From Candidatus Pantoea edessiphila (lineage in GTDB: Bacteria; Pseudomonadota; Gammaproteobacteria; Enterobacterales; Enterobacteriaceae): 64,000 nt of DNA. The stretch is taken from positions 1-64,000 of the forward strand of contig NZ_PDKT01000002.1 in NCBI RefSeq assembly GCF_002933315.1, in the 5' to 3' direction. This document shows, piece after piece, positions 4,667-59,834 of the stretch (its first letter is position 1; every line of letters begins with the position of its first letter). The translations under genes and the position numbers were made by a program. The notes under the pieces were generated by a model that ran no database searches, was not told the origin of the DNA, and saw nothing but the letters and a program-made list of their open reading frames with translations.

Positions 4667-4802
4667 AAATTTGATCTTATCTCTGATACTATTATATGAA
4701 TAATAGAATTTTTAAATAGGAAATTACAATAATCATTTTATAATATGGTTATTTATTAAATAATTTTCTTAAAGAAAAAATAAAATATAAAAATTTGTTA
4801 TA

Positions 4803-4853
4803 ATTTTATATCTTTTTTAATTACTAAAAGAACAATTAAAAAAGATATAAAAT
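4803..4853. repeat. Perfect 20-bp inverted repeat in spacer
   Basis: Bases 4803-4822 are the exact reverse complement of 4834-4853, with an 11-base loop (ACTAAAAGAAC). The arms are nearly pure A/T with one C/G pair. There is no T-run of terminator type on either side beyond general AT richness. It lies about 135 bp after the lysC stop. It could be a weak lysC terminator or an mRNA-end stabiliser. Confidence 0.7.
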
Positions 4854-5099
4854 GGACATATTACTTTTATAAGTAAAATTGATTGCATATTAATTATGAT
4901 CATGTTAGTTGACTTTAGCTAAATCGTACAATATTTTATAATAAACAAAAAATAAGTAATATTATGATATATTATTAATTGTATAAAACAAATATCTTTT
5001 AATTATATTATCTTAAAACTTCATATTTAGTTGAAATTTTTTATTATTTTACATAATTATTAATTATGAGTACAATTTTAATTGCTCAGTATCAATGTT

Positions 5100-5172
5100 G
5101 AACAAATAAATTTTTTATTAAAAATTTATTTTTATTTAAATAACTTAAACAATAATTATTTGTTCTTTTTTT
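5100..5172 (+). terminator. Terminator-like hairpin with T-run
   Basis: GAACAAATAA (5100-5109) pairs with TTATTTGTTC (5156-5165), with further internal A/T pairing in the loop, followed at once by seven Ts (5166-5172). The form suits a Rho-independent terminator reading rightward. It has no clear gene just upstream, so it may be a relic of a deleted gene. Confidence 0.4.
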
Positions 5173-5421
5173 ATATTTTCTGGTTATTATTCAAAATAAT
5201 TTTTCTAATTTTAATTTATTTTTATATAAATTAAAAATATTTTTAATAATTTAATCAATATCTTGAAAATTAATATATACAATACTCAGTAATGCATGAA
5301 ATTATCAACTACAATTAACTGTAAATATATACAATTAATACTTTAAATGCCGATTATTTTATATAGAATAGTGTTAATATATAAGATAAAGTTAAACCTG
5401 AAGTTGATTTGGAGGTTTAAA

Positions 5422-5658
5422 ATGAATAAAGACAAAATCAGCGGTAATTGGAAACAGTTTAAAGGTAGAATAAAAGAAAAATGGGGAAAATTAACAGACG
5501 ATGATTGTCAGTGTATTCAAGGCAAAAGAGATCAACTAATAGGAAAAATTCAAGAACGTTACGGTTGTGCTAAAGATGAAGCAGAGAAAGAAGTAAGTGC
5601 TTGGGAAAGTCTTAATAAAGACTGTCGTTGGTATAACAATAAAGATTGTCATTGGTAA
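5422..5658 (+). CDS. yjbJ: CsbD-family stress protein YjbJ, cysteine-enriched
   Basis: A small soluble CsbD-like protein of unknown biochemical role; E. coli YjbJ is abundant under general stress. It is 78 aa against 69 in E. coli. The start at 5422 is fixed by a strong SD (GGAGG at 5411) and by the family N-terminus MNKDKISGNWKQFKGR; the longer open frame from 5347 is not supported. The core GNWKQFKG, KWGKLTDDD and GKRDQLIGKIQERYG is intact. Unusually it has five cysteines (29, 31, 49, 68, 76), whereas E. coli YjbJ as I recall it has none, and a C-terminal extension built on a repeated NKDC[R/H]W unit. A strong terminator follows. Confidence 0.93.
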   Translation: MNKDKISGNWKQFKGRIKEKWGKLTDDDCQCIQGKRDQLIGKIQERYGCAKDEAEKEVSAWESLNKDCRWYNNKDCHW

Positions 5659-5682
5659 TTAATAATATAACTTTTAAAAGTT

Positions 5683-5712
5683 GGCACAAGGATGTGCCTT
5701 TTTGTTTTTTTT
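5683..5712 (+). terminator. Rho-independent terminator of yjbJ
   Basis: GGCACA (5683-5688) and TGTGCC (5693-5698) form a GC-containing stem around the loop AGGA, followed by a T-rich tract to 5712. It lies 25 bases after the yjbJ stop and separates yjbJ from dusA. Confidence 0.88.
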
Positions 5713-5731
5713 AAAGAAATTCTATATAAAT

Positions 5732-6703
5732 ATGAATGATTATCATCATCGTTTTTCTGTAGCACCTATGCTGGGTTGGACTGACCGCCATTGTCGTTAT
5801 TTTTATCGACAATTAAGTAAATATACGCTATTATATACAGAAATGATAAACACAAAAAAAATTATCAATAATGAAAATAGTTGTTTAGATTTTAATGAAG
5901 ATAAACATCTAGTTGCATTACAATTAAGTGGTAGTAATTCATCTGAATTAGCTTACTGCGCTAGATTAGCTCAACATCATGGCTATAAAGAAATAAATCT
6001 TAATATCGGTTGTCCATCATATCGAGCACAAAAAGGATATTTTGGGGCATGTCTAATGACTAATGCAAATTTAGTAGGAGATAATATTAAGGCAATATAT
6101 GATGTTGTAGATATTCCAGTAACTATTAAAACTCGTATTGGTGTAGATGAAAAAGATAGCTATACATTTTTAAGTGATTTTATAGGTAATGTATCAAAAA
6201 TTAGTGGTTGTCGTAATTTTATTTTCCATGCAAGAAAAGCAATACTTTCAAAGTATAATCCAAAGAAAAACCGTAAGATACCCATTTTAAAATATTCTTA
6301 TGTATATAATATTAAAAGAGATTTTCCTTCTTTTACAATAATAATAAATGGAGGAATCGAGACATTAGAAGAAGCCCAAATACACCTACAGTATCTTGAT
6401 GGTGTTATGATTGGACGTGCTATTTATAGTAATCCTAGGATATTATCTGAAGTTGATAGTAAAATTTTTGGTTGTAAAAAACAAGTACATCCTATTTTAT
6501 TAGTTAGGAATATGTACCCTTATATTAACAATGAATTAAAAAATGATATTAAGATTAATAAAATATTACGACATATGTTATATTTATTTAAAGGTATTCC
6601 AGGATCTAGTAAATGGCGTCGTTATCTTAGTAACAATATTCATAAATCTGATACAGGTATTTGGATGATTGAAGAAGCGTTAAAAACAATAAAATTTGAT
6701 TAA
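5732..6703 (+). CDS. dusA: tRNA-dihydrouridine synthase A
   Basis: FMN-dependent enzyme reducing uridines 20/20a in the tRNA D-loop. It is 323 aa. The start ATG at 5732 lies after the yjbJ terminator; the open frame reaching back to 5681 runs through the terminator and is rejected. The TIM-barrel N-terminus RFSVAPMLGWTDRHCRYF contacts FMN. INLNIGCPSYRAQKGYFGACLM carries the catalytic cysteine (the GACLM Cys) and the GCPS loop (Cys94). INGGIETLEEA and GVMIGRAIY form the phosphate-binding end. E. coli has APMLDW where this has APMLGW, a mild change. No good SD is visible. In E. coli dusA also lies between yjbJ and dnaB. Confidence 0.95.
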   Translation: MNDYHHRFSVAPMLGWTDRHCRYFYRQLSKYTLLYTEMINTKKIINNENSCLDFNEDKHLVALQLSGSNSSELAYCARLAQHHGYKEINLNIGCPSYRAQKGYFGACLMTNANLVGDNIKAIYDVVDIPVTIKTRIGVDEKDSYTFLSDFIGNVSKISGCRNFIFHARKAILSKYNPKKNRKIPILKYSYVYNIKRDFPSFTIIINGGIETLEEAQIHLQYLDGVMIGRAIYSNPRILSEVDSKIFGCKKQVHPILLVRNMYPYINNELKNDIKINKILRHMLYLFKGIPGSSKWRRYLSNNIHKSDTGIWMIEEALKTIKFD

Positions 6704-7087
6704 TAAGATTTTTATAAAGATCTTATCAAAATATTGATATTATTAAATGTCTTAATTGAATAAAATAGTAAGATATAGAATTTTTTCTAAATTTATATAG
6801 AGTTAATTTATAAAATATTTTCGTCATAATTTTTTAGTAAAATCACTTATTATAATACTTTTATTAATTTTTGATTTAACAAAAATACTAATACGTAGTT
6901 TTTTATCATAAATTTTCAGTTAACATTTAAAATTTAATCAATTATTATTAAATTTTAAATGAAATATTTAATGAATTGATTTTTGTTAGTTATTTGTAAT
7001 TATTTTAATTAACGAGGCAAAGTATTAGTTATATTAAAAGCACAATTTTTATCTTTCCTCTCAATAACGATAGGTAATATACTTATT
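6704..7087. other. 384-bp AT-rich spacer dusA to dnaB
   Basis: No gene is seen. It contains a perfect 15-bp AT-only hairpin (6924-6938 with 6947-6961, listed separately) and the dnaB promoter, which is not distinctive. E. coli pspG and qor, which sit here, are absent. Confidence 0.6.
6924..6961. repeat. Perfect 15-bp inverted repeat
   Basis: CATTTAAAATTTAAT (6924-6938) is the exact reverse complement of 6947-6961, with the loop CAATTATT. It is essentially AT only and lies midway between dusA and dnaB. Function unknown; one of several such hairpins in the spacers. Confidence 0.6.
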
Positions 7088-8491
7088 ATGTTAGGAAAAA
7101 AAACAACTAATAATCACAACAAAAAGAAAGATTATCAGCTAGAAGACATAAAAATACCTCCCCATTCTATAGAAGCAGAGCAATCTATTCTAGGTGGATT
7201 AATGTTAGACAATGAATGTTGGTTTAATATTTCTCACTATGTTATTGCTGATGATTTTTTTAATTTTGCTCACAAGATTATTTTCTTAGAAATGCAGTAT
7301 CTATTAGAAAATAATAAACCAATTGATTTAATTACGTTATCAGAATCTTTAGAAATCAATGGTAAACTTGAAATAGTTGGTGGTTTTGCATATTTAGCTG
7401 AAATATCTAAAAATACACCAAGTGTTGCCAATATTTCTGCTTATGCCGACATAGTAAGAGAACGTGCAATATTACGCGAAATAATATTAGTAGCAAATAA
7501 AATTGCCAATGCTAGCTATAATCCACAAGGACGTAAGATAGAAGAATTACTTGATTTTGTAGAATCAAATATATTTAAAATTGCAGAGACAAGATTTAAT
7601 AAAAATGATGGTCCTAAAAATATAAGCCAGATCCTTGAAACTGCAGTTTCAAGGATTGAATCTTTAATTAATAAACCTCAAGACGGTATTACTGGTATAA
7701 ATACTGGATATCAAGATTTAAATAATAAAACAGCCGGACTGCAACGTTCCGATCTTATTATTGTTGCAGCACGTCCATCTATGGGTAAAACTACTTTCGC
7801 TATGAATATTTGCGAAAATATTGCGATGCTATATGATAAACCAATTTTAATTTTTAGTTTGGAAATGCCTAGTGAACAAATAATATTGCGTATGTTAGCA
7901 TCTTTATCACGTGTTGATCAAACACGTATTCGTACAGGGCAACTTGATAACGAAGATTGGACAAGAATTTCTAGTACAATAAGTATTCTTTTAAAAAAGA
8001 AAAATATTTATATAGATGATTCTTCTAGTTTAACACCTACTGAAATTAGGGCAAGAGCTCGTCGTATTTATCGAGAAAATGATGGACTAAATATAATAAT
8101 GATAGACTATTTACAGCTTATGCGTATACCTTCTTTATCTGATAATCGTAATTTAGAAATAGCTGAAATTTCTCGCTCATTAAAATCACTTGCTAAAGAA
8201 CTTAATGTCCCAGTAATTGCATTATCACAACTTAATCGTTCTCTTGAACAACGTGCCAATAAAAGACCTATGAATTCAGATTTACGTGAATCAGGTTCAA
8301 TTGAACAGGATGCTGATTTGATAATGTTTATTTATCGTGATGAAATATATCATGACAATAGTGATCTAAAAGGTGTTGCAGAAATTATTTTAGGTAAACA
8401 AAGAAACGGCCCAATTGGTACTATATATTTAACATTTAATGGTAAATGGTCACGTTTTGATAATTATGTAGGTACTTATTACGATATTTAA
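7088..8491 (+). CDS. dnaB: Replicative DNA helicase DnaB
   Basis: Hexameric 5'-3' helicase that unwinds DNA at the fork and recruits primase and the polymerase clamp loader. It is 467 aa (E. coli 471). The N-terminal domain (about 20-170) begins after the conserved PPHSIEAEQSILGGLMLDN. The RecA-like domain has Walker A ARPSMGKTT (228-236), Walker B NIIMIDYLQLM, and the late motifs GSIEQDADLIMFIYRDE and LGKQRNGPIGT. It is complete, with no intein. E. coli has alr, tyrB and uvrA between dnaB and ssb; these are gone. Confidence 0.98.
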   Translation: MLGKKTTNNHNKKKDYQLEDIKIPPHSIEAEQSILGGLMLDNECWFNISHYVIADDFFNFAHKIIFLEMQYLLENNKPIDLITLSESLEINGKLEIVGGFAYLAEISKNTPSVANISAYADIVRERAILREIILVANKIANASYNPQGRKIEELLDFVESNIFKIAETRFNKNDGPKNISQILETAVSRIESLINKPQDGITGINTGYQDLNNKTAGLQRSDLIIVAARPSMGKTTFAMNICENIAMLYDKPILIFSLEMPSEQIILRMLASLSRVDQTRIRTGQLDNEDWTRISSTISILLKKKNIYIDDSSSLTPTEIRARARRIYRENDGLNIIMIDYLQLMRIPSLSDNRNLEIAEISRSLKSLAKELNVPVIALSQLNRSLEQRANKRPMNSDLRESGSIEQDADLIMFIYRDEIYHDNSDLKGVAEIILGKQRNGPIGTIYLTFNGKWSRFDNYVGTYYDI

Positions 8492-14206: not shown

Positions 14207-15229
14207 TTATTTAATATGTAAGTTATTTAATACTTTTTTGAATTTATGATTATCATTAACTAATTTTGGTATCATGTATCCAGATAATTGTAAAGGTAAA
14301 TCATTAATTAATTGTAATATATTTTCTTTTTTTACTGAAAAATGTGCAGTACCTTGCACTTTATCTAGTATGTGTAAATAATAAGGTAATATACCTACAT
14401 CAAATAAAGTATTATTAAGCCTAACCAACGTTTCTACACTATCATTTATCCCCTTTAATAAAACACTTTGATTGAGTAAAGTAACACCTGCTTTTTTTAG
14501 CTTATATACTATGGTAAATACTTCATCATTGATTTCTTGAGCATGGTTAATATGTGTCACTAATAATATGTTAAACTTAGTTTTTTTGAAAATTTTACAT
14601 AATTGGTCGGTTACACGAGCAGGAATTACTACTGGAAAACGAGTATGAATTCGTAATTGTTTTATATGAGATATAGTTTCTAATTGTTTTATAATCCATT
14701 CTATTTCATGGTCTTTTGCGATCAAAGGGTCTCCACCCGAAAAAATAACCTCATTTATTTCAGTATGCAAATTAATATAATTTAATGCTATTTGCCAATT
14801 TCTTTTATTACCTTGATTTTTATAATAAGGAAAATAACGACGAAAACAATATCTACAGTTTATAGCACAACTATTTTTTAATAATAACACAATTCTATTT
14901 TTATATTTATGCAATAAACCAGGTATTGTACTGCTTTGTTCATTTAAAGGATCTTGACTATAACCTCTTGTATTAATTAATTCTTTATGATTAATTAAAA
15001 CTTGCATAAGCAATGGATCTTTTATTGTATTTTTTTTCATTCGGTTAACAAATGATTTTGGTACTCTTAAAGGAAACACTGTTCTTAATTTATTAAGTTT
15101 TTCTATTTTATATTTGTTATCTAATTCTAAAATATTTAATAATTTTTCAGGTTTAGTAATAACATTAGCTAATTGTTGTAACCAATCTTCTTTTTTGGAT
15201 AATTGGTTTATATTTATATTATTTCCCAT
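14207..15229 (-). CDS. epmB: EF-P lysine 2,3-aminomutase
   Basis: Radical SAM/PLP enzyme that converts (S)-alpha-lysine to (R)-beta-lysine for EpmA to attach to EF-P. Start at 15229 (340 aa): MGNNININQLSKKEDWL aligns with the E. coli start and has GGAG ten bases upstream, whereas the ATG at 15238 is only 2 bases from that SD. The radical SAM cluster motif is CAINCRYCFRR. EVIFSGGDPLIAKDHE and LLNQSVLLKGIND are also conserved, and YYLHILDKVQGTAHF lies near the PLP site. E. coli EpmB has 342 aa. Divergent from efp, with epmA beyond it. Confidence 0.95.
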   Translation of the reverse strand: MGNNININQLSKKEDWLQQLANVITKPEKLLNILELDNKYKIEKLNKLRTVFPLRVPKSFVNRMKKNTIKDPLLMQVLINHKELINTRGYSQDPLNEQSSTIPGLLHKYKNRIVLLLKNSCAINCRYCFRRYFPYYKNQGNKRNWQIALNYINLHTEINEVIFSGGDPLIAKDHEIEWIIKQLETISHIKQLRIHTRFPVVIPARVTDQLCKIFKKTKFNILLVTHINHAQEINDEVFTIVYKLKKAGVTLLNQSVLLKGINDSVETLVRLNNTLFDVGILPYYLHILDKVQGTAHFSVKKENILQLINDLPLQLSGYMIPKLVNDNHKFKKVLNNLHIK

Positions 15230-15271
15230 TTTCAACATTCTCCAGTGTTAATTTAATAATAGAGGACTGAA

Positions 15272-15838
15272 ATGTTAACTTATTTTAGTAATGATTTTCG
15301 TATTGGATTAAAAATTATCTTTGAAAATGAACCATATGCTATAGAATCCAGTGAATTTGTTAAACCTGGCAAAGGCCAAGCATTTGTACGTGTTAAAATG
15401 CGTCGTTTATTAACAGGAGCTCGCATTGAAAAAACTTTTAAATCCACGGATTCACTTCAATGTGCAGATGTAAAAGATATCAACTTAATATATTTATATA
15501 ATGACAATGATTTTTTTTATTTTATGCATCCTAAAAATTTTGAACATTTTCAAATTAATAAAAAAAATATGGGTGAATCCATTAAATGGATGCAGACAAA
15601 TCTAGAATGCACTGTTACACTATGGAATAATACTCCTATTATCGTGCAACCACCTAAATTCATTGAAATAAAGATTATTAATACTGATCCAGGTTTAAAA
15701 GGAGATACAGTTGTTAGTGGTGGCAAATTAGCCACTTTAATCACTGGTGCAGTAATTAAAGTACCTTTATTCATAAAAACTGGAGAAATAATTAAAGTTA
15801 ATACACGTTCAGGAGAATATGTTTCTCGTATTAAATAA
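15272..15838 (+). CDS. efp: Elongation factor P
   Basis: Binds stalled ribosomes near the E site and promotes Pro-Pro peptide bond formation. It is 188 aa, exactly the E. coli length. The modified lysine is Lys34 in [10 protein letters not shown]. Domains II and III are complete, ending [12 protein letters not shown]. Both modifying enzymes (EpmB divergent, EpmA 90 bp downstream) flank it. EpmC, the hydroxylase, is not in this window. Confidence 0.97.
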
Positions 15839-15928
15839 TAAAATTTTAGTTAAATTAGTTACATAAAAATCTTAATTATAATAACTTGAAAGAATTAGTT
15901 TGTTCTTTTTTAAAATGAGATATGCAAT

Positions 15929-16903
15929 ATGAATAAGCAATCAAATTGGCAACCTAGTATATCGATAGATAATTTACTTAAAAGAGCAAAGATTCTGTCT
16001 AAAATAAGACGTTTTTTTTCAATTAATGGTGTATTAGAAGTTGAAACACCTATTATAAGTAGAAAAACAACTACCGATATTCATCTTGTACCATTCAGTA
16101 CGAAATTTATTGATAATTCCTTAAATGAAGAAGAATTTTGGTTAATAACTAGTCCTGAATACCATATGAAAAGATTATTAGCATTAGGTAGTGGACCCAT
16201 TTATCAAATAGGACATAGTTTTCGTAACAAAGAGATTGGACGTTATCATAATCCAGAATTTACTATGCTAGAATGGTACCGTCCTAAATGCGATATGTTT
16301 TGTTTAATGGATGAAGTAGATAATTTATTACAATTTATTTTAGGTTGTAATGGTGCAGATTTTATTTCTTACCAAAATATATTTATTGATCATCTGAATT
16401 TAGATCCACTTTCCACTAATAAAAATCAACTTCTTGAAGCTGCAAGTAAATTAGGTAATAGCCATTTAATAACTCCTGAAAAAGATATTGACAGTATATT
16501 GATGATATTATTTATGATTGGTATAGAACCAAATATTGGACAAAAAAAACCTTGTTTTGTTTATAATTTTCCAGCAAATCAGGCAATATTATCAGAAATC
16601 AATAGTGCAGATAGTCGTATATCAGAAAGATTCGAAGTATACTATAAAGGTATAGAATTAGCAAATGGTTGTCTTGAATTAACTGATTTTCAAGAACATA
16701 TTAATCGTTTCGAAGAAGATAATCGTAAACGAATCAATAGTGAATTACCGATATATCCAATTAATGATATGCTACTTGATGCCATTAAACATGGCATGCC
16801 TGTATGTTCTGGAGTTGCATTGGGTATTGATAGATTAGTAATGTTATCATTAAATGCAAATTCAATACATGAAGTTATAACTTTTCCTATAGATCGTTGT
16901 TAA
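15929..16903 (+). CDS. epmA: EF-P beta-lysine ligase
   Basis: Class II lysyl-tRNA-synthetase-like enzyme (PoxA/GenX) without an anticodon domain; it ligates beta-lysine to EF-P Lys34. It is 324 aa (E. coli 325). Motif 1 is in [11 protein letters not shown]. Motif 2 spans [21 protein letters not shown]. Motif 3 is [12 protein letters not shown] near the C-terminus. Its position downstream of efp differs slightly from E. coli, where the frd operon intervenes. SD weak. Confidence 0.95.
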
Positions 16904-48567: not shown

Positions 48568-49575
48568 TTATATTTTAGTAAGAGTTGCTACCATAATTGC
48601 TTTAATAGTATGTAATCGATTTTCTGCTTGATCGAAAACAATACTATGGCTTGATTCAAAAACTTCATTACTAACTTCAATTCCATTTTGAAAGTTATAT
48701 TTTTTTGATAAATCAAGACCTAATACAGTATTTTTGTCATGTAATGAAGGTAAACAATGTAAAAATTTGACTTGAGGATTATTAGTGAGTTTCAGCATAT
48801 TGCTATCAACTTGATAACTTCTTAATAATTTAATACGGTTGTCCCAAATTTCTTTTGATTCTCCCATAGATACCCATACATCAGTATAAATAAAATCCAC
48901 ATTTTCTACTCCTTCTTTGATATTATCCGTAAAAATTATTCTACCACCATTTTTTTTAGATATCTGAATACAATGATGAATAAATCTATTTTTTGGCCAA
49001 AAATTTTTGTCAGTAAGAATTCTTAATTGTAATCCAGTTAAAGCAGCTACTTCTAGTATACTATTTCCAATGTTATTTCTTGCATCACCTACATAAACTA
49101 ATTTTATTTCATTTAATTTTTTTTCTGGTATATGTTCTTGTATAGTTAATAAATCAGCAAGTAATTGAGTAGGATGAAATTCATTTGTTAAACCATTCCA
49201 AACTGGAATACTAGAATATTTAGCAATTTCCTCTATTAATTCTTGATTAAATCCACGGTATTGAATTCCATCATATATTCTACCTAATACACGAGCTGTA
49301 TCTTTTATTGATTCCTTATAACCAATTTGGCTAGTATTTTGATTTAGATAAGTAATATTAGCACCTTGATCATAAGCAGCTACTTCAAAAGAACACCTGG
49401 TTCTAGTAGATTCTTTTTCAAATAATAATACAATATTTTTACCTTTTAGATGCTGAACTTCATTTAAATTTTTTTTTGCTTGCTTCAATTCGGAAGATAA
49501 TTTAATTAAATACTGTATTTCCTCTAAAGAAAAATCTAATAACCTTAAAAAATGACGTAAATATAAATTACACAT
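48568..49575 (-). CDS. argI: Ornithine carbamoyltransferase
   Basis: Makes citrulline from ornithine and carbamoyl phosphate in arginine synthesis. The start at 49575 is set by GAGGA five bases upstream and by alignment of [16 protein letters not shown] with E. coli ArgI; the frame from 49611 is too long. It is 335 aa (E. coli 334). Carbamoyl-phosphate site ESTRTRCSF (about 55-63), [11 protein letters not shown], the ornithine loop DVWVSMGE and HCLPSLHD are intact. Next to valS, as in E. coli. No ARG box could be identified. Confidence 0.96.
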
Positions 49576-49644
49576 AATATCCTCATATTCAACAAAATAT
49601 TGTTTTTTCATAAAATGAAATTTTTATGAAACAAACTAATTAAT

Positions 49645-52500
49645 TCACAGATTTTTAATTTTGATTTTTTGATACATTAATCTTTCTATAAATTGTTCTA
49701 ATTGTTTTAATTTATTATGTTCTTGCATTACAATAGATTTTGGAGCACGAGACATAAAATTATTGTTATCTAATTTACATCTTATTTTTCTTATTTCTAA
49801 ATCTAATTGAATTATATCTTGATTTAATCGATTTAATTCAACATTTTTATCTATCGTATTTATTGTAGGTATAATTATTTCAGCGTCTTTTATAGTTTTA
49901 GTTATTGACATTAAAATTTGATCTTTATCAACTAAAATAGTCAATTTATTTAAATATCCCAATTTTACTAATAAATTATAATTAACTTTTACAATCATAA
50001 TAACAAATGGAGAACAATTAGCTAAAAATACATCTATATGTTTATTTAATTTTATATTCATTTTTCTGCGGATATTACGCATTTCAGTAATAAATTGTCT
50101 TATCCAATCAAAATGTTCTTCTGATTCCTTATCTTCTTTTGCTTTTTCATAAATTGGAAATGCTTGATACATTATTGTATTATCTTTGACTTTTTTGATA
50201 ATTTTAATTTTTTGCCAGATAGCCTCAGTAATAAATGGTATAATGGGATGTGCTAAACGCAGTAATGATTCTAATACAAACAATAAAGTATTTTGTGAGT
50301 TTTTAATTGCAATATTATTTTCGTTTTTTAATATTATTTTGACAATTTCTAAATACCAATCGCAAAATTCATTCCAAGTAAAATCATACAATATATTTGC
50401 TGCAATATCAAAACGATATGAATCAAGTGCTTCTCGATAAATTTTCACAATACTATTAAATTTAGATAAAATCCAACGATCTGAAATTGATAATGTATTA
50501 GCTTGATAATTTTTATGATACTCATAATGTGATAAATTCATTAATACAAAACGGCTAGCATTCCATAATTTATTACAAAAATTACGATAGCCTTCTAAAC
50601 GTTTCATATCCCAATTAATATCACGACCAGTAGATGTTAAAGCGGCTAGTGTAAACCTCATAGCATCCGCACCTGATGGTTTTATTCCATTTGGAAATTC
50701 TTTTTTTGTAATTTCGCAAATTTTTTTAGATAATTGCGGTAATAACATGTTACTAGTACGTTTTATCAATAGTTGTTTTAATGAAATTCCATCTATTATG
50801 TCAATTGGATCAACAACATTACCTTTAGATTTTGACATTTTTTGACCTTGATCGTCTCGAATTAATCCAGTCATATAAACTGTTTTAAAAGGAATTTGAG
50901 ATTTACCATGTTTATCTTTAATGAAATACATAGTTAACATAATCATACGAGCAATCCAGAAAAAAATAATATCAAATCCACTTACTACAACATTAGTAGG
51001 ATGAAAAGTTTGAAGTAATTTATTATTTTCAGGCCATCCTAAGGCAGCAAAAGTCCATAAGCTAGATGAAAACCAAGTATCTAATACATCATTATCTTGC
51101 CATAAAATAATATTGGTACCTAAATTATTTTTATCTCTTATTTTTTTTTCGGAATAATCAACATATATTTTACCATCATTTGAATACCAAGCAGGAATAC
51201 GATGTCCCCACCATAACTGACGTGAAATACACCAATCTTGAATATTAGACATCCATGAAAAATACATGTTTTCATATTGTTTTGGTATAAATTTAATATA
51301 TCCTTTCTTCACTGCTTCAATTGCCATTACAGCTAACGGTTTCATATGAATATACCATTGTTTAGTTAACATTGGTTCAATAATTGCTCCACTACGATCA
51401 CCATAAGGAACAGTTAAATTATGAGTTTTAATTTGTTCCAATAAACCAAGTTTACTAAGCATTTGCACAATGTTTTTTCTTGCAATAAATCTGTCAATTT
51501 TTCTAAACGGCTTAGGAATTTCATTATTATATATATTAATTTTTATACCTTTTGTATCATAAATTTGAGAATATTCACGAATACAACCATCCAATGTAAA
51601 AATATTAATCATGGGTAAATTATGACGAAGACCTACTTCATAATCAACAAAATCATGTGCTGGGGTAATTTTTACGCATCCAGTACCTTTATTTATGTCT
51701 ACAAATTTATCACCGATAATAGGAATTATACGTTCTAGTATTGGTAATACAACTGATTTTCCAATAAGATCTTTATAACGATTATCATTTGGATGAACTG
51801 CAACTCCAGTATCACCTAATAACGTTTCTGGACGTGTAGTAGCAATTGTTAAATAATTTTTGCCTTCAATTGTTTTTGTTCCATTAAAAAGTGGATATCT
51901 AATATACCAAATATTAGCTTGAATATCTCTATTGTTTATTTCTAAATCAGAAATTGCAGTACATAATTTAGGATCCCAATTGACTAATCTTATACCACGG
52001 TAAATTAGCTTTTCATTATATAAATGAATAAATGCTTTTTTTACTGCTTTAGAAAAGCTATCATCCATGGTAAAGCGTTCATTTTCCCAATCTACCGAAT
52101 TACCAAGACGACGCATTTGATTATTAATAGTATTACCTAATTTTTTTTTCCAACACCAAATTTTTTGGATAAATTCATCACGTCTATAATCTTGACGTAT
52201 TTTACCTTCTTCTAATTTAATTTTATTTTCAATAATAATTTGTGTAGCAATGCCAGCGTGATCCGTACCAGTCTGCCACAATGTATTCTTGCCTTGCATT
52301 CTATGATAACGAATTATGATATCCATTATTGTTTGTTGAAAAGCATGACCCATATGTAAATTACCGGTAACGTTTGGTGGTGGTAGCATTATACAAAAAC
52401 TTTCTCTATTCAAATCTCCATTTGGTTTAAAATAACCATTTTTTTCCCAATATTCATAAATAGTTTTTTCAAAATTTCTTGGATCAAATTTTTTTTCCAT
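49645..52500 (-). CDS. valS: Valyl-tRNA synthetase
   Basis: Class I synthetase charging tRNA-Val, with an editing domain. It is 951 aa, identical in length to E. coli. The HIGH motif is HMGHA ([17 protein letters not shown]). The CP1 editing domain includes [17 protein letters not shown] and [24 protein letters not shown] is in [17 protein letters not shown]. The anticodon-binding helices and a C-terminal coiled coil (about 885-950) complete it. First 24 bp after holC. Confidence 0.98.
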
Positions 52501-55908: not shown

Positions 55909-56328
55909 TTGATAAAAATTATAAATTACATTACTAATCATAAAATAGATTGGTTTTTATATAAATTAGGTGTTAATCAATATAAATTGTATAGACCACA
56001 TTTATTAAAAGGAGTATTTAATTTAGATATTTTATCCTATATAAAATTAATTATAGTTACTAAAGAAATACCTAATCTATGTACATCTTTTATAAAAGAT
56101 GTATTGTATGCTTTGAATATACAATCTTCTCAAGTAATGATAATTCAACCAGAACAATTGAAAATGTTTTTAGGTAGATTACACTGTATTTTTTGGTTAA
56201 TCGGTATAGAAAATAATCCTGTATTTAAAGGAAAATTTTTATATACTTGTTCTTTATTGTATTTAATTAATAATAGTGATGAAAAACGTTCTTTATGGAA
56301 ACAAATATATAATTTAAATAATTTTTAA
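55909..56328 (+). CDS. holD: DNA polymerase III psi subunit
   Basis: Joins chi to the clamp loader. It is 139 aa (E. coli 137) and very diverged, but KIDWFLYKLGVNQYKLYRPHLLKG aligns with the E. coli RRDWQLQQLGITQWSLRRPGALQGE region, and the C-terminus (KRSLWKQIYNLNNF) resembles RAALWQQICTYEHDFF. The start is TTG at 55909 after AGGG; there is no ATG in frame upstream of the homology. Position after leuQPV-type tRNA matches E. coli, where rsmC and rimI flank it (both lost). Confidence 0.82.
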   Translation: MIKIINYITNHKIDWFLYKLGVNQYKLYRPHLLKGVFNLDILSYIKLIIVTKEIPNLCTSFIKDVLYALNIQSSQVMIIQPEQLKMFLGRLHCIFWLIGIENNPVFKGKFLYTCSLLYLINNSDEKRSLWKQIYNLNNF

Positions 56329-56443: not shown

Positions 56444-57423
56444 ATGTTGAATTGCATAAATTGGTGTGATCTATCTGATGATATTTCATTATGGTCAAAT
56501 TTTCCATTTTTTTGCAATGATCAAAAAAACAATTGTATTCCCATAAGCAAAATTGGATTTTATATGGCAAAGAACTAAATAAAACATTATTCATGAAATA
56601 TCAACAACAAATTAATGTTCACTTAATTATCATTAATTGTTGGATTGTAGATGAATATAAAGTAATTTGCATACAAGGCATGCTGACAGCATCTGCTATC
56701 AATTTAGCATATACATTAAGATTAGATATAGCAAAATTAATTAATATTCCATCCTTAAAAAAACTAGGATTATTATTAATGGACATGGACTCAACTGCTA
56801 TTGAAATTGAATGTATAAATGAAATTGCTAAATTAATAGGTATTGGAAATGAAATGGATAAGATTACTAAATGTGCAATGTTAGGAGAAATTAGTTTAGT
56901 CAGAAGTTTATATAAACGTTTAGCTATGTTAAAAGGTGTAGATATAAATATTCTTAAATATGTACTTGATAAGTTACCATTAACACCAGGTTTAATTCAA
57001 TTGGTAAAAAAACTGCAAAAATTAAATTGGCATGTTGCTATTATTTCCAGTGGATTTAAATACTATGCATCTTATTTAGGAAATAAACTTAATTTAACAG
57101 ATGTAATTGCCAATGAATTAGAAATTCATAACGGTAAATTAACTGGTAAAATAATTGGTCCAATAGTTGATGATCTATATAAATTAAATAGTTTAAAAAA
57201 AATTTCTCAGAGATTAAATATTCCTTTAGAACAGACTGTAGCTGTAGGTAATGGTGCTAATGATTTGTTAATGATTAAATCTGCGGGTTTAGGTATTACT
57301 TATAGAGCAAATTATAAAGTAAATAATCAAGTAAGTATAAAGATCGTTAATTCTGATTTAATGGGTATATTTTGCATTCTCAATAGCACTATAATATTAG
57401 CTATATTTGATATTAAAAAATAA
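56444..57423 (+). pseudogene. serB: Phosphoserine phosphatase, frameshifted at an A7 tract
   Basis: SerB dephosphorylates phosphoserine to serine. Translation from ATG 56444 (SD AAGGA) gives MLNCINWCDLSDDISLW, matching the E. coli N-terminus, but stops near 56578. Homology continues from YSHKQNWILYGKEL in another frame, open from 56521 to 57423. One extra base in the A7 tract (56523-56529) would join them into 326 aa (E. coli 322). The HAD domain has DMDSTAIEIE and ISSGF, but GDGAND is GNGAND, replacing a metal-binding Asp. Either a young pseudogene, or rescued by polymerase slippage on the A-tract. Confidence 0.88.
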
Positions 57424-57857: not shown

Positions 57858-59834
57858 GTGAAAAATTTATGTAAATATTTAATTTTGTTTTACTTTACTA
57901 CTGTAACTAATATTTTGTATGCCGATTCCATTAGTCAGCAACGTGACGATTATAAACAAATAAAAATAGCTTTAAAAAATTACAATAAAAATCTACCAGT
58001 TATAAATAAACTACTACATAAATTAAAGGATTATTCACTTTATCCTTACCTTCAATACGATATTTTAATGGAAAAAATCAAAAATGAAAAGAATTTGACT
58101 TTAATGCAAAAACCTGTAATTAATTTTATAAAAGAACACAGTGATTTAAAAGTTTCACATTTATTAAGTTATTATTTTACAGAGTTATTAGTTACAAAAC
58201 ATCGCTGGAAAGATCTAATGTATTTCAGTCCGAAAGCACCAAAAACAGCAAAATGTGTATGTGATTGGTATTACGCTAAATGGTCAATTGAAAAAAAACC
58301 AATACATTTTGAAGATTTAATTAAGAATTTATTAAATAGTAACCTTGTTTCCAAGAAGAATTTATTAAACAATAAAAAGAACTCAAATAATTGTGATAAG
58401 TTGTTTCTGATTCCACATAAATATATTGCAACACCTCCATCTGTGATAATCGAATATATTCGATTAGCTATGAAAAAAAATAATCATACATTAATAAATT
58501 ATTTAATTAAACTTTTACCTTCAGACTATAAAAATACTGCAAATACAGTCTTAAAAATTAAAAACAATCCACTATTTATTACTGACTTTGTCAAAACAGC
58601 AAAATCTACTCCATTTAATCTTCAATTAATTAATTACTCTATTGTAAATTTATCGCCCAAACATGCTGATTTAGCAATCGAAAAAATTCCAATAATATTA
58701 AGTCATTACAAGATGGAAAATTCTGATATTCAATCGTTAAAAGAAATCGTAGCAAATAATATGATGGATAGAGAATTTACTTCGAAACAAAAAATATGGC
58801 GTGATTCAGTTATAATAAATAGTAAATCTGTTTCATTAATTGAAAAACGTATTCGTTTATCCTTAAAACAAAATAATATTAAAGATCTAAAAATTTTTAT
58901 TGAGCATTTGCCGTATAACATGCAAGCAAAAGAAGAATGGCAATATTGGAAATCTTATGTATTATTAGTTTTAAACAATAATAAAATTGAATCTGATAAA
59001 ATTTTATATAATTTGATGAAAAAAAATAGTTTTTATTCATTAATTGCTGCTCAAAAATTAGGTATAAGTTATCAATTTAAACAAAGTAAGACAATAGAAC
59101 CTGATCCTAGTATATCGAAAATTAAAAAAATAATTAGAATAAATGAATTAATGTATTGGAACAAATATTGTTTTGCAAAGTTTGAATGGAATAAATTACT
59201 TACTAATAAATCTAATAGATTTCAGACAATGTTAGCTAGCTACGCTAATAAACAACAATGGTGGCATTTGAGTGTAGAAACCACTATTCAAGCCAAAATT
59301 TGGAATAATCTTAAGGAAAGATTTCCATTAGCTTGGAATGAATTATATAAAAAATATACTAAAGGTAAGAACATTACAAAAAATTATGCTATGGCTATTT
59401 CAAGACAAGAAAGTGGATGGGATCCTTACGTAAAATCAGCAAATAATGCTGTTGGACTTATGCAAATTAAGAATATTGCTTTTACAGATACAATGCAAAT
59501 ATGTCATATTAAACAATCTTTAACTATGCAAAAATTATTTAATCCTGAAAATAATATTTGGGTTGGAACAAATTATTTAGAACATATTTTCAAATTGGTT
59601 GGAAAAAATAGAGTTCTAGCTTCAGCAGCATATAATGCTGGTTTATCAAAAATAAATCAGTGGAGACGTGTAACAGCAGGTAAATTAGATGTAGTAGCGT
59701 TTATAGAATCTATTCCATTTAAAGAAACACGACAATATGTAAAGAACGTTTTATTATACAATGCATATTATAATTATTTAACGGGAAAACCTGAAAATAT
59801 TTTAACTCCTCTTGAATGGAATCATAGTTATTAA
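57858..59834 (+). CDS. slt: Soluble lytic murein transglycosylase Slt70
   Basis: Periplasmic enzyme cleaving peptidoglycan with 1,6-anhydro-MurNAc formation. It is 658 aa (E. coli 645). Start GTG at 57858 gives a signal peptide MKNLCKYLILFYFTTVTNILYA, with cleavage before DSISQQRDDY. The alpha-helical U and L domains are diverged but alignable (DYSLYPYLQYDIL, YYAKWSIEK). The catalytic domain has AISRQESGWDPYVKSANNAVGLMQI with catalytic Glu518, LASAAYNAGLSKI and FVESIPF-like FIESIPFKETRQYVKNVLLY. Fits the retained MurA/GlmM wall pathway. Confidence 0.94.
   Translation: MKNLCKYLILFYFTTVTNILYADSISQQRDDYKQIKIALKNYNKNLPVINKLLHKLKDYSLYPYLQYDILMEKIKNEKNLTLMQKPVINFIKEHSDLKVSHLLSYYFTELLVTKHRWKDLMYFSPKAPKTAKCVCDWYYAKWSIEKKPIHFEDLIKNLLNSNLVSKKNLLNNKKNSNNCDKLFLIPHKYIATPPSVIIEYIRLAMKKNNHTLINYLIKLLPSDYKNTANTVLKIKNNPLFITDFVKTAKSTPFNLQLINYSIVNLSPKHADLAIEKIPIILSHYKMENSDIQSLKEIVANNMMDREFTSKQKIWRDSVIINSKSVSLIEKRIRLSLKQNNIKDLKIFIEHLPYNMQAKEEWQYWKSYVLLVLNNNKIESDKILYNLMKKNSFYSLIAAQKLGISYQFKQSKTIEPDPSISKIKKIIRINELMYWNKYCFAKFEWNKLLTNKSNRFQTMLASYANKQQWWHLSVETTIQAKIWNNLKERFPLAWNELYKKYTKGKNITKNYAMAISRQESGWDPYVKSANNAVGLMQIKNIAFTDTMQICHIKQSLTMQKLFNPENNIWVGTNYLEHIFKLVGKNRVLASAAYNAGLSKINQWRRVTAGKLDVVAFIESIPFKETRQYVKNVLLYNAYYNYLTGKPENILTPLEWNHSY

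Follow-up and report, generated by a model that had tools for sequence, protein, structure and literature searches.

A frameshifted serB in Candidatus Pantoea edessiphila, very probably a young pseudogene of a serine pathway being lost

When a gene in an AT-rich symbiont genome is broken by a single base at a homopolymer, is it dying, or is it still expressed through some form of recoding? The serB gene of Candidatus Pantoea edessiphila raises this question. It lies in a stretch of 64,000 nucleotides (hereafter the window) with a GC content of 26.7%, taken from a draft genome of 850,393 bases in 12 contigs that is 99.95% complete (G000). Flanked by holD (55909-56328) and slt (57858-59834), serB is split over two reading frames. 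The first-pass annotation, made from the sequence alone, left two explanations standing: a young pseudogene, or a gene expressed through slippage of RNA polymerase. The two have fared differently. Three findings favor the pseudogene reading: SerB has lost an active-site Asp, serA of G000 is dead as well, and neither gene is detected in two congeners. The serB gene here is very probably a young pseudogene, belonging to a serine pathway in the course of being lost. The slippage reading gained nothing comparable; what speaks for it comes down to the homopolymer itself and a normal overall rate of change in SerB.

Two frames and one missing base

On the plus strand, the gene begins at an ATG at 56444, preceded by AAGGA, in a frame of 44 codons that ends at a TAA at 56576-56578. 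This N-terminal fragment (56444-56578) is SerB-like to about codon 28 and from there runs out of frame to its stop. The rest of the gene, including the HAD phosphatase domain, lies in a shifted frame on the same strand (56521-57423), which opens past a TGA at 56518-56520 and remains open for 300 codons. The start and the HAD domain thus occupy different frames, as the first-pass annotation had said. It also proved right that the A7 tract at 56523-56529 (plus strand) is the only long homopolymer where the frames overlap: within 56521-56578 it is the sole run of at least seven, and the other A or T runs of at least four are one A4 and one T4.

Reading one extra A at the A7 tract had been proposed to fuse the two SerB homologies, and alignment bears this out. 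The result is a continuous protein that aligns over its full length with the intact SerB of three congeners (G003, G001, and G005). The N-terminal homology is real (WCDLSDDISLWSNFPFF in the window versus LCDLPENISHWSNFPIL in G003), though the 44-codon piece by itself matches no NCBIfam model. The HAD frame scores 234.5 bits on the TIGR00338 serB model (cut-off 144.15), compared to 246.2 for G003 and 243.0 for G001. On NF008350, with its cut-off of 413, the HAD frame alone reaches 366.3 bits, and the intact proteins of G003 and G001 also fall below (389.3 and 399.1). Because the full-length alignment, the N-terminal homology, and the HAD profile score all agree, the break is a true one-base frameshift relative to the congeners and not a chance overlap of reading frames. 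The A7 tract is the most likely site of the lost base. A functional SerB would be read in one continuous frame, which serB in the window does not offer, and functional enzyme is probably absent.

Two further features of this junction go beyond the first-pass annotation. The last six bases of the A7 tract and the C that follows it make up a zero-frame A AAA AAC (56524-56530), in the register used for –1 ribosomal frameshifting. Within the HAD frame, the first ATG is at 56593-56595 on the plus strand (the codon at 56533 is TTG), 14 nt past the stop of the N-terminal frame; it is a possible start for reinitiation, with a product of 276 residues. The reading of serB as a broken gene had also been said to fail if a close relative had a SerB that begins at YSHKQN. 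No such relative was found: the N-terminal part is aligned in 24/24 outgroup rows and in 3/3 congeners.

Serine synthesis genes across the genus

SerA makes the first intermediate of the serine pathway, and SerC, another of its enzymes, also acts in vitamin B6 synthesis with PdxB, PdxA, and PdxJ. The state of these genes was compared in six genomes of the genus, G000 and the congeners G001 to G005. In G001, G003, and G005, serB is a single frame of 333, 326, and 327 codons, with identities of 66, 68, and 65%, and the A7 tract is absent from the site in all three (G001 has two A6 runs nearby). Since serB is intact in these three congeners, the break in the window is a lineage-specific loss of one base. 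In G002 and G004, serB has no match. In the window, the interval from holD to slt contains serB and measures 1.5 kb. The corresponding gaps measure about 1 kb (G004) and about 0.2 kb (G002), and neither holds any significant similarity to SerB.

The serA gene of G000 (G000:C8:61609-62826, minus strand, locus L072) is more heavily damaged, with an in-frame TAA and two shifts of frame, one at a T8 tract and one at an A7 tract. It also encodes Tyr at the position of His292 of E. coli SerA, which is His in the three intact congeners; His292 is described as the active-site histidine of the E. coli enzyme, PGDH (PMC6300728). The PF02826 profile matches serA in two pieces in G000 and as open frames of about 410 to 420 codons in G001, G003, and G005. 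In G002 and G004, a search with PF02826 only gave pdxB alone (in G002) or weak matches below the cut-off. The states of serA and serB therefore agree in 6/6 genomes: both are intact in three, both broken in G000, and both undetected in two.

The neighboring pathway is better kept. Three genes, serC, glyA, and pdxJ, are open in 6/6 genomes, and G000 has pdxB, pdxA, and pdxJ all open. Matches to pdxB occur in 5/6 genomes (none in G004, two pieces in G002), and matches to pdxA in 6/6 (split in G003, two contig pieces in G002). The sparing of serC is probably explained by the second role of SerC in the synthesis of vitamin B6 (PLP). The genus thus provides a small series of states on the way to losing serine synthesis, from an intact gene through a freshly broken one to its absence, either with a spacer of 1 kb left in place or with the gap closed; serC is spared in every genome.

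Is the break in the window an early stage of the same loss that emptied G004 and G002? In a five-genome tree built on 42 window genes, G003 and G004 form a pair (support 96) to which neither the window genome nor G001 with G005 belongs. When G002 is added, with 16 genes, G004 pairs with G002 and then with G003 (supports 89 and 87), and the branch of G002 is long. Under any rooting, the contrast between a nearly whole serB in the window and its absence from G004 and G002 is most simply explained if the window gene broke separately and at a later time. Of 16 relatives with genomes of at most 1.2 Mb (G000 excluded), three (G001, G003, and G005) have an open serB, in G018 the match contains two stops, and the other 12 give no serB match. 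One genome-contig scan yielded five distant relatives.

Some observations from the same genomes stand apart from serB in the window. The match in G018 (G018:C1:13382-14239, locus L025), interrupted by an internal TAG and a TAA, belongs to a reduced 1.1 Mb genome of the same family and another genus. In G004, pdxB, serA, and serB were not found and serC, pdxA, and pdxJ are open, which leaves SerC without an obvious upstream partner in either pathway. In G005, contig C5 is syntenic to 14207-16903 and 5681-6703 of the window, and there epmA, epmB, and dusA match short fragments only. The corresponding stretch of G004 yielded neither epmA nor epmB, whereas efp persists in G004 and G005 alike. No urease alpha gene turned up in any of the six genomes of the genus, which argues against an assignment to Blochmannia, for which urease genes are described (PMC3017870). 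A contig of about 150 kb occurs at this place in G000, G001, G003, G004, and G005, and one of about 85 kb in four of them, as if the drafts broke at the same repeats.

Constraint on the encoded protein

The protein that would result from read-through keeps much of what defines a SerB. Motif I of the HAD family (DxDST) is retained with its nucleophile Asp, as MDMDSTA. The Mg2+-ligand motif GDGxND, however, has become GNGAND. This motif reads GDGxND in 3/3 congeners and GDGAND in 24/24 outgroup rows, and the change is due to a codon AAT at 57250-57252 (plus strand), D270N in read-through numbering, where Asp is found in every one of those rows and congeners. The position aligns with an Asp of the SerB structure 3n28, and its archaeal equivalent, identified by motif, is Asp167, given as a Mg2+ ligand in PMC6321591. 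How severe such a change can be is suggested by SerB2 of Mycobacterium tuberculosis, for which PMC4270767 gives the equivalent D341N variant a kcat/Km of 0.0016 compared to 0.0187 for the wild type, or about 9%, and describes it as retaining residual activity. Among the PDB chains matched, 5it4 has the same Asn at this site, which, judging by its sister entries, would be an engineered variant. A second Asp, in the motif IECIDEIA, is likewise replaced by Asn (codon AAT at 56818-56820, plus strand; D126N in read-through numbering) and is Asp in 24/24 outgroup rows and 3/3 congeners.

Are such changes unusual for this protein? The comparison rests on 24 of 26 fetched outgroup loci, two (L014 and L025) having been dropped for stops in their matches; serB matches occur in 41 outgroup genomes, 15 of which are outside the alignment. 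Read-through positions from 33 on were used, with the earlier columns excluded. Window SerB has 23 changes of its own, and 8/23 hit positions with the same residue in at least 95% of the outgroup rows, compared to 4/49 for the three congeners pooled (Fisher p = 0.014); this is a contrast of 8 and 4 events in one gene, with D270N already seen beforehand and without a control-gene counterpart. The eight are P108L, D126N, A132I, V138M, D151S, V160L, D270N, and A286T. Under strict invariance the counts are 5/23 and 2/49 (p = 0.030), and at a 90% threshold 8/23 and 5/49 (p = 0.020).

The overall rate gives a different impression. The SerB branch of G000 is not accelerated (ratio 0.378, rank 18 of 44 genes), and the unique changes of SerB do not stand out from those of the other 43 genes (p = 0.51). 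Six of 50 rows had been excluded from this test: a csbD-like gene without a congener match, kdsC with a match in G003 only, dusA with no match in G003 and a fragment in G005, epmA and epmB with fragments in G005, and lptB, which is short in G005. A long-dead serB was considered and rejected, as a faster SerB branch would be expected of a dead gene. Whether the rest of SerB is under full constraint thus has a mixed answer, with eight invariant-site changes, D270N among them, on one side and a normal overall rate and a profile score near that of the congeners on the other. Since the rate is normal, the HAD score close to that of the congeners, and the HAD frame open, the loss of serB must be recent.

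Rescue, error, and decay

Could serB still be expressed? In the slippage reading, RNA polymerase would slip on the A7 tract and add one A in some of the transcripts, and full-length SerB would be made. It is true that only one indel, located at an A tract, separates two frames that are otherwise open, that the SerB branch shows no overall acceleration, and that such rescue is documented at long poly(A) runs in Buchnera and Blochmannia, with 12 to 50% of transcripts corrected (PMC5009743; also PMC3017870). However, those runs are about 9 or more in length (runs of at least 9 are the ones termed long in PMC3017870), so A7 is short by comparison, and insertions in Buchnera are reported to grow exponentially with run length, in a study that observed no transcription error bringing back a reading frame (PMC5574713). 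In the window, an A7 tract is ordinary: 49 intact ORFs contain 70 coding-strand A tracts of at least seven (35 A7, 23 A8, 11 A9, and 1 A10). The tract at serB is absent from the three intact congeners, and the frameshift is not kept across relatives, three of the five congeners having an intact gene and two having no match. A rescued SerB would still carry D270N, and it would be short of substrate because SerA is dead upstream by a stop codon, which slippage on poly(A) cannot mend. Slippage is therefore quite improbable. Production of SerB by ribosomes that shift –1 on A AAA AAC (56524-56530, zero-frame CAA AAA AAC) is less probable again. The heptamer is in register and of a kind known to support –1 shifting, and the shift would go in the right direction, but the same source describes it as much less shift-prone in E. 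coli than A AAA AAG (PMC5009743). Ten zero-frame copies of it occur in the 49 intact ORFs of the window, and it is absent from the three intact congeners. The downstream RNA is no better folded than its shuffles (z = 1.21; 181/200 shuffles fold at least as well), no SD-like element is seen by eye just upstream, and the product would have the same impaired active site in a dead pathway.

Neither does translation of the HAD domain alone offer an easy way out. Reinitiation at the ATG at 56593 would give an N-truncated enzyme of 276 residues, and the 14 nt between stop and start fits translational coupling. There are SerB enzymes that do without the N-terminal part, such as 1f5s with 211 residues, and M. 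tuberculosis SerB2 is reported to retain some activity when reduced to its PSP domain (PMC4270767). No clear SD precedes 56593, though, and the N-terminal part has been kept in the three intact congeners and all 24 outgroup rows; the product would have D270N and no substrate supply, so that reinitiation is a distinctly poor candidate, about as weak as the –1 shift. A sequencing or assembly error, with one more A in the true genome and serB in frame, has the least probability of all. Homopolymers are common sites of error, but the 49 open ORFs of the window contain 88 homopolymers of at least seven, with the reservation that these ORFs were chosen for being open, and 48/49 match at least one congener ORF. 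A screen from the congener side, with non-overlapping ORFs of at least 90 codons (53 from G003, 55 from G001, and 53 from G005), flagged no split gene in the window, although breaks near gene ends could escape it, and serB itself did so owing to its short N-terminal piece. Poor coverage was seen for 3/53, 5/55, and 2/53 of these ORFs, respectively, some of which lie beyond the thrB end of the window; the stretches 4798-7224 and 49429-49923 of G001 and 48751-49254 of G005 have no match in the window. (An earlier version of the congener-ORF screen was swamped by antisense ORFs and discarded.) In addition, serA of G000 has an in-frame stop besides its two homopolymer frame changes, and the substitutions in SerB are no homopolymer errors.

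A young pseudogene is thus left as the best explanation. In the lineage of G000, the serine pathway probably came under relaxed selection. The serA gene gained its stop codon, its frameshifts in the T8 and A7 tracts, and the change of its catalytic His to Tyr; serB lost one base, most simply by replication slippage in the A tract, and acquired the active-site change of Asp to Asn, with serC probably kept for PLP. The order of these steps may have been different. Some facts sit less comfortably with a pseudogene. Even at so low a GC content, 300 codons of the HAD frame are without a stop, its profile score falls short of two intact congeners by only about 10 bits, and the mycobacterial D341N enzyme is described as impaired rather than dead (PMC4270767). 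There is a slim chance that a little SerB is made, whether through reinitiation at 56593 or through a –1 shift or slippage on A AAA AAC, and that the D270N protein, after the loss of SerA, is kept for some role outside serine synthesis, for instance as the phosphatase of a different metabolite.

The pseudogene reading has parallels in known systems. Gene erosion begun by homopolymer indels is described for the reduced genome of the insect symbiont Blochmannia (PMC3017870). As there, serB has a one-base indel in an A tract of an AT-rich genome and is still recognizable, and its congeners have the gene intact or gone; unlike the cases given in that source, the decay extends to serA, and SerB has lost an active-site residue. 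The likeness to the rescued genes of Buchnera and Blochmannia (PMC5009743) lies in the single indel in a poly(A) tract, whereas, compared to the cases described there, the tract in serB is shorter, is not found in congeners, and comes with an active-site substitution and a dead upstream enzyme. Measured against phosphoserine phosphatase itself (TIGR00338; PDB 3n28), serB of the window has the DMDST motif and a HAD frame above the TIGR00338 cut-off and differs in its two frames and its GNGAND. Serine is predicted to be host-supplied in Ishikawaella, the symbiont of a plataspid stinkbug, whose genome is likewise reduced and reported to be without serine synthesis of its own (PMC9561257). The host of Pantoea edessiphila may supply serine in the same way.

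In sum, serB in the window is most likely an instance of ordinary, recent gene decay rather than a cleverly rescued gene. It is also a caution that a homopolymer frameshift in an AT-rich symbiont is not automatically rescued by slippage, and what can decide between pseudogene and rescue is whether the active site and the rest of the pathway's enzymes are still in order. Another split gene is found in G003, where pdxA (G003:C6:84154-85106, locus L094) is divided over two frames shortly past an A9 tract and otherwise well conserved, in a genome with serA, serB, serC, pdxB, and pdxJ all open. By the length of its tract and by its context, this pdxA looks like a better candidate for slippage rescue than serB in the window.
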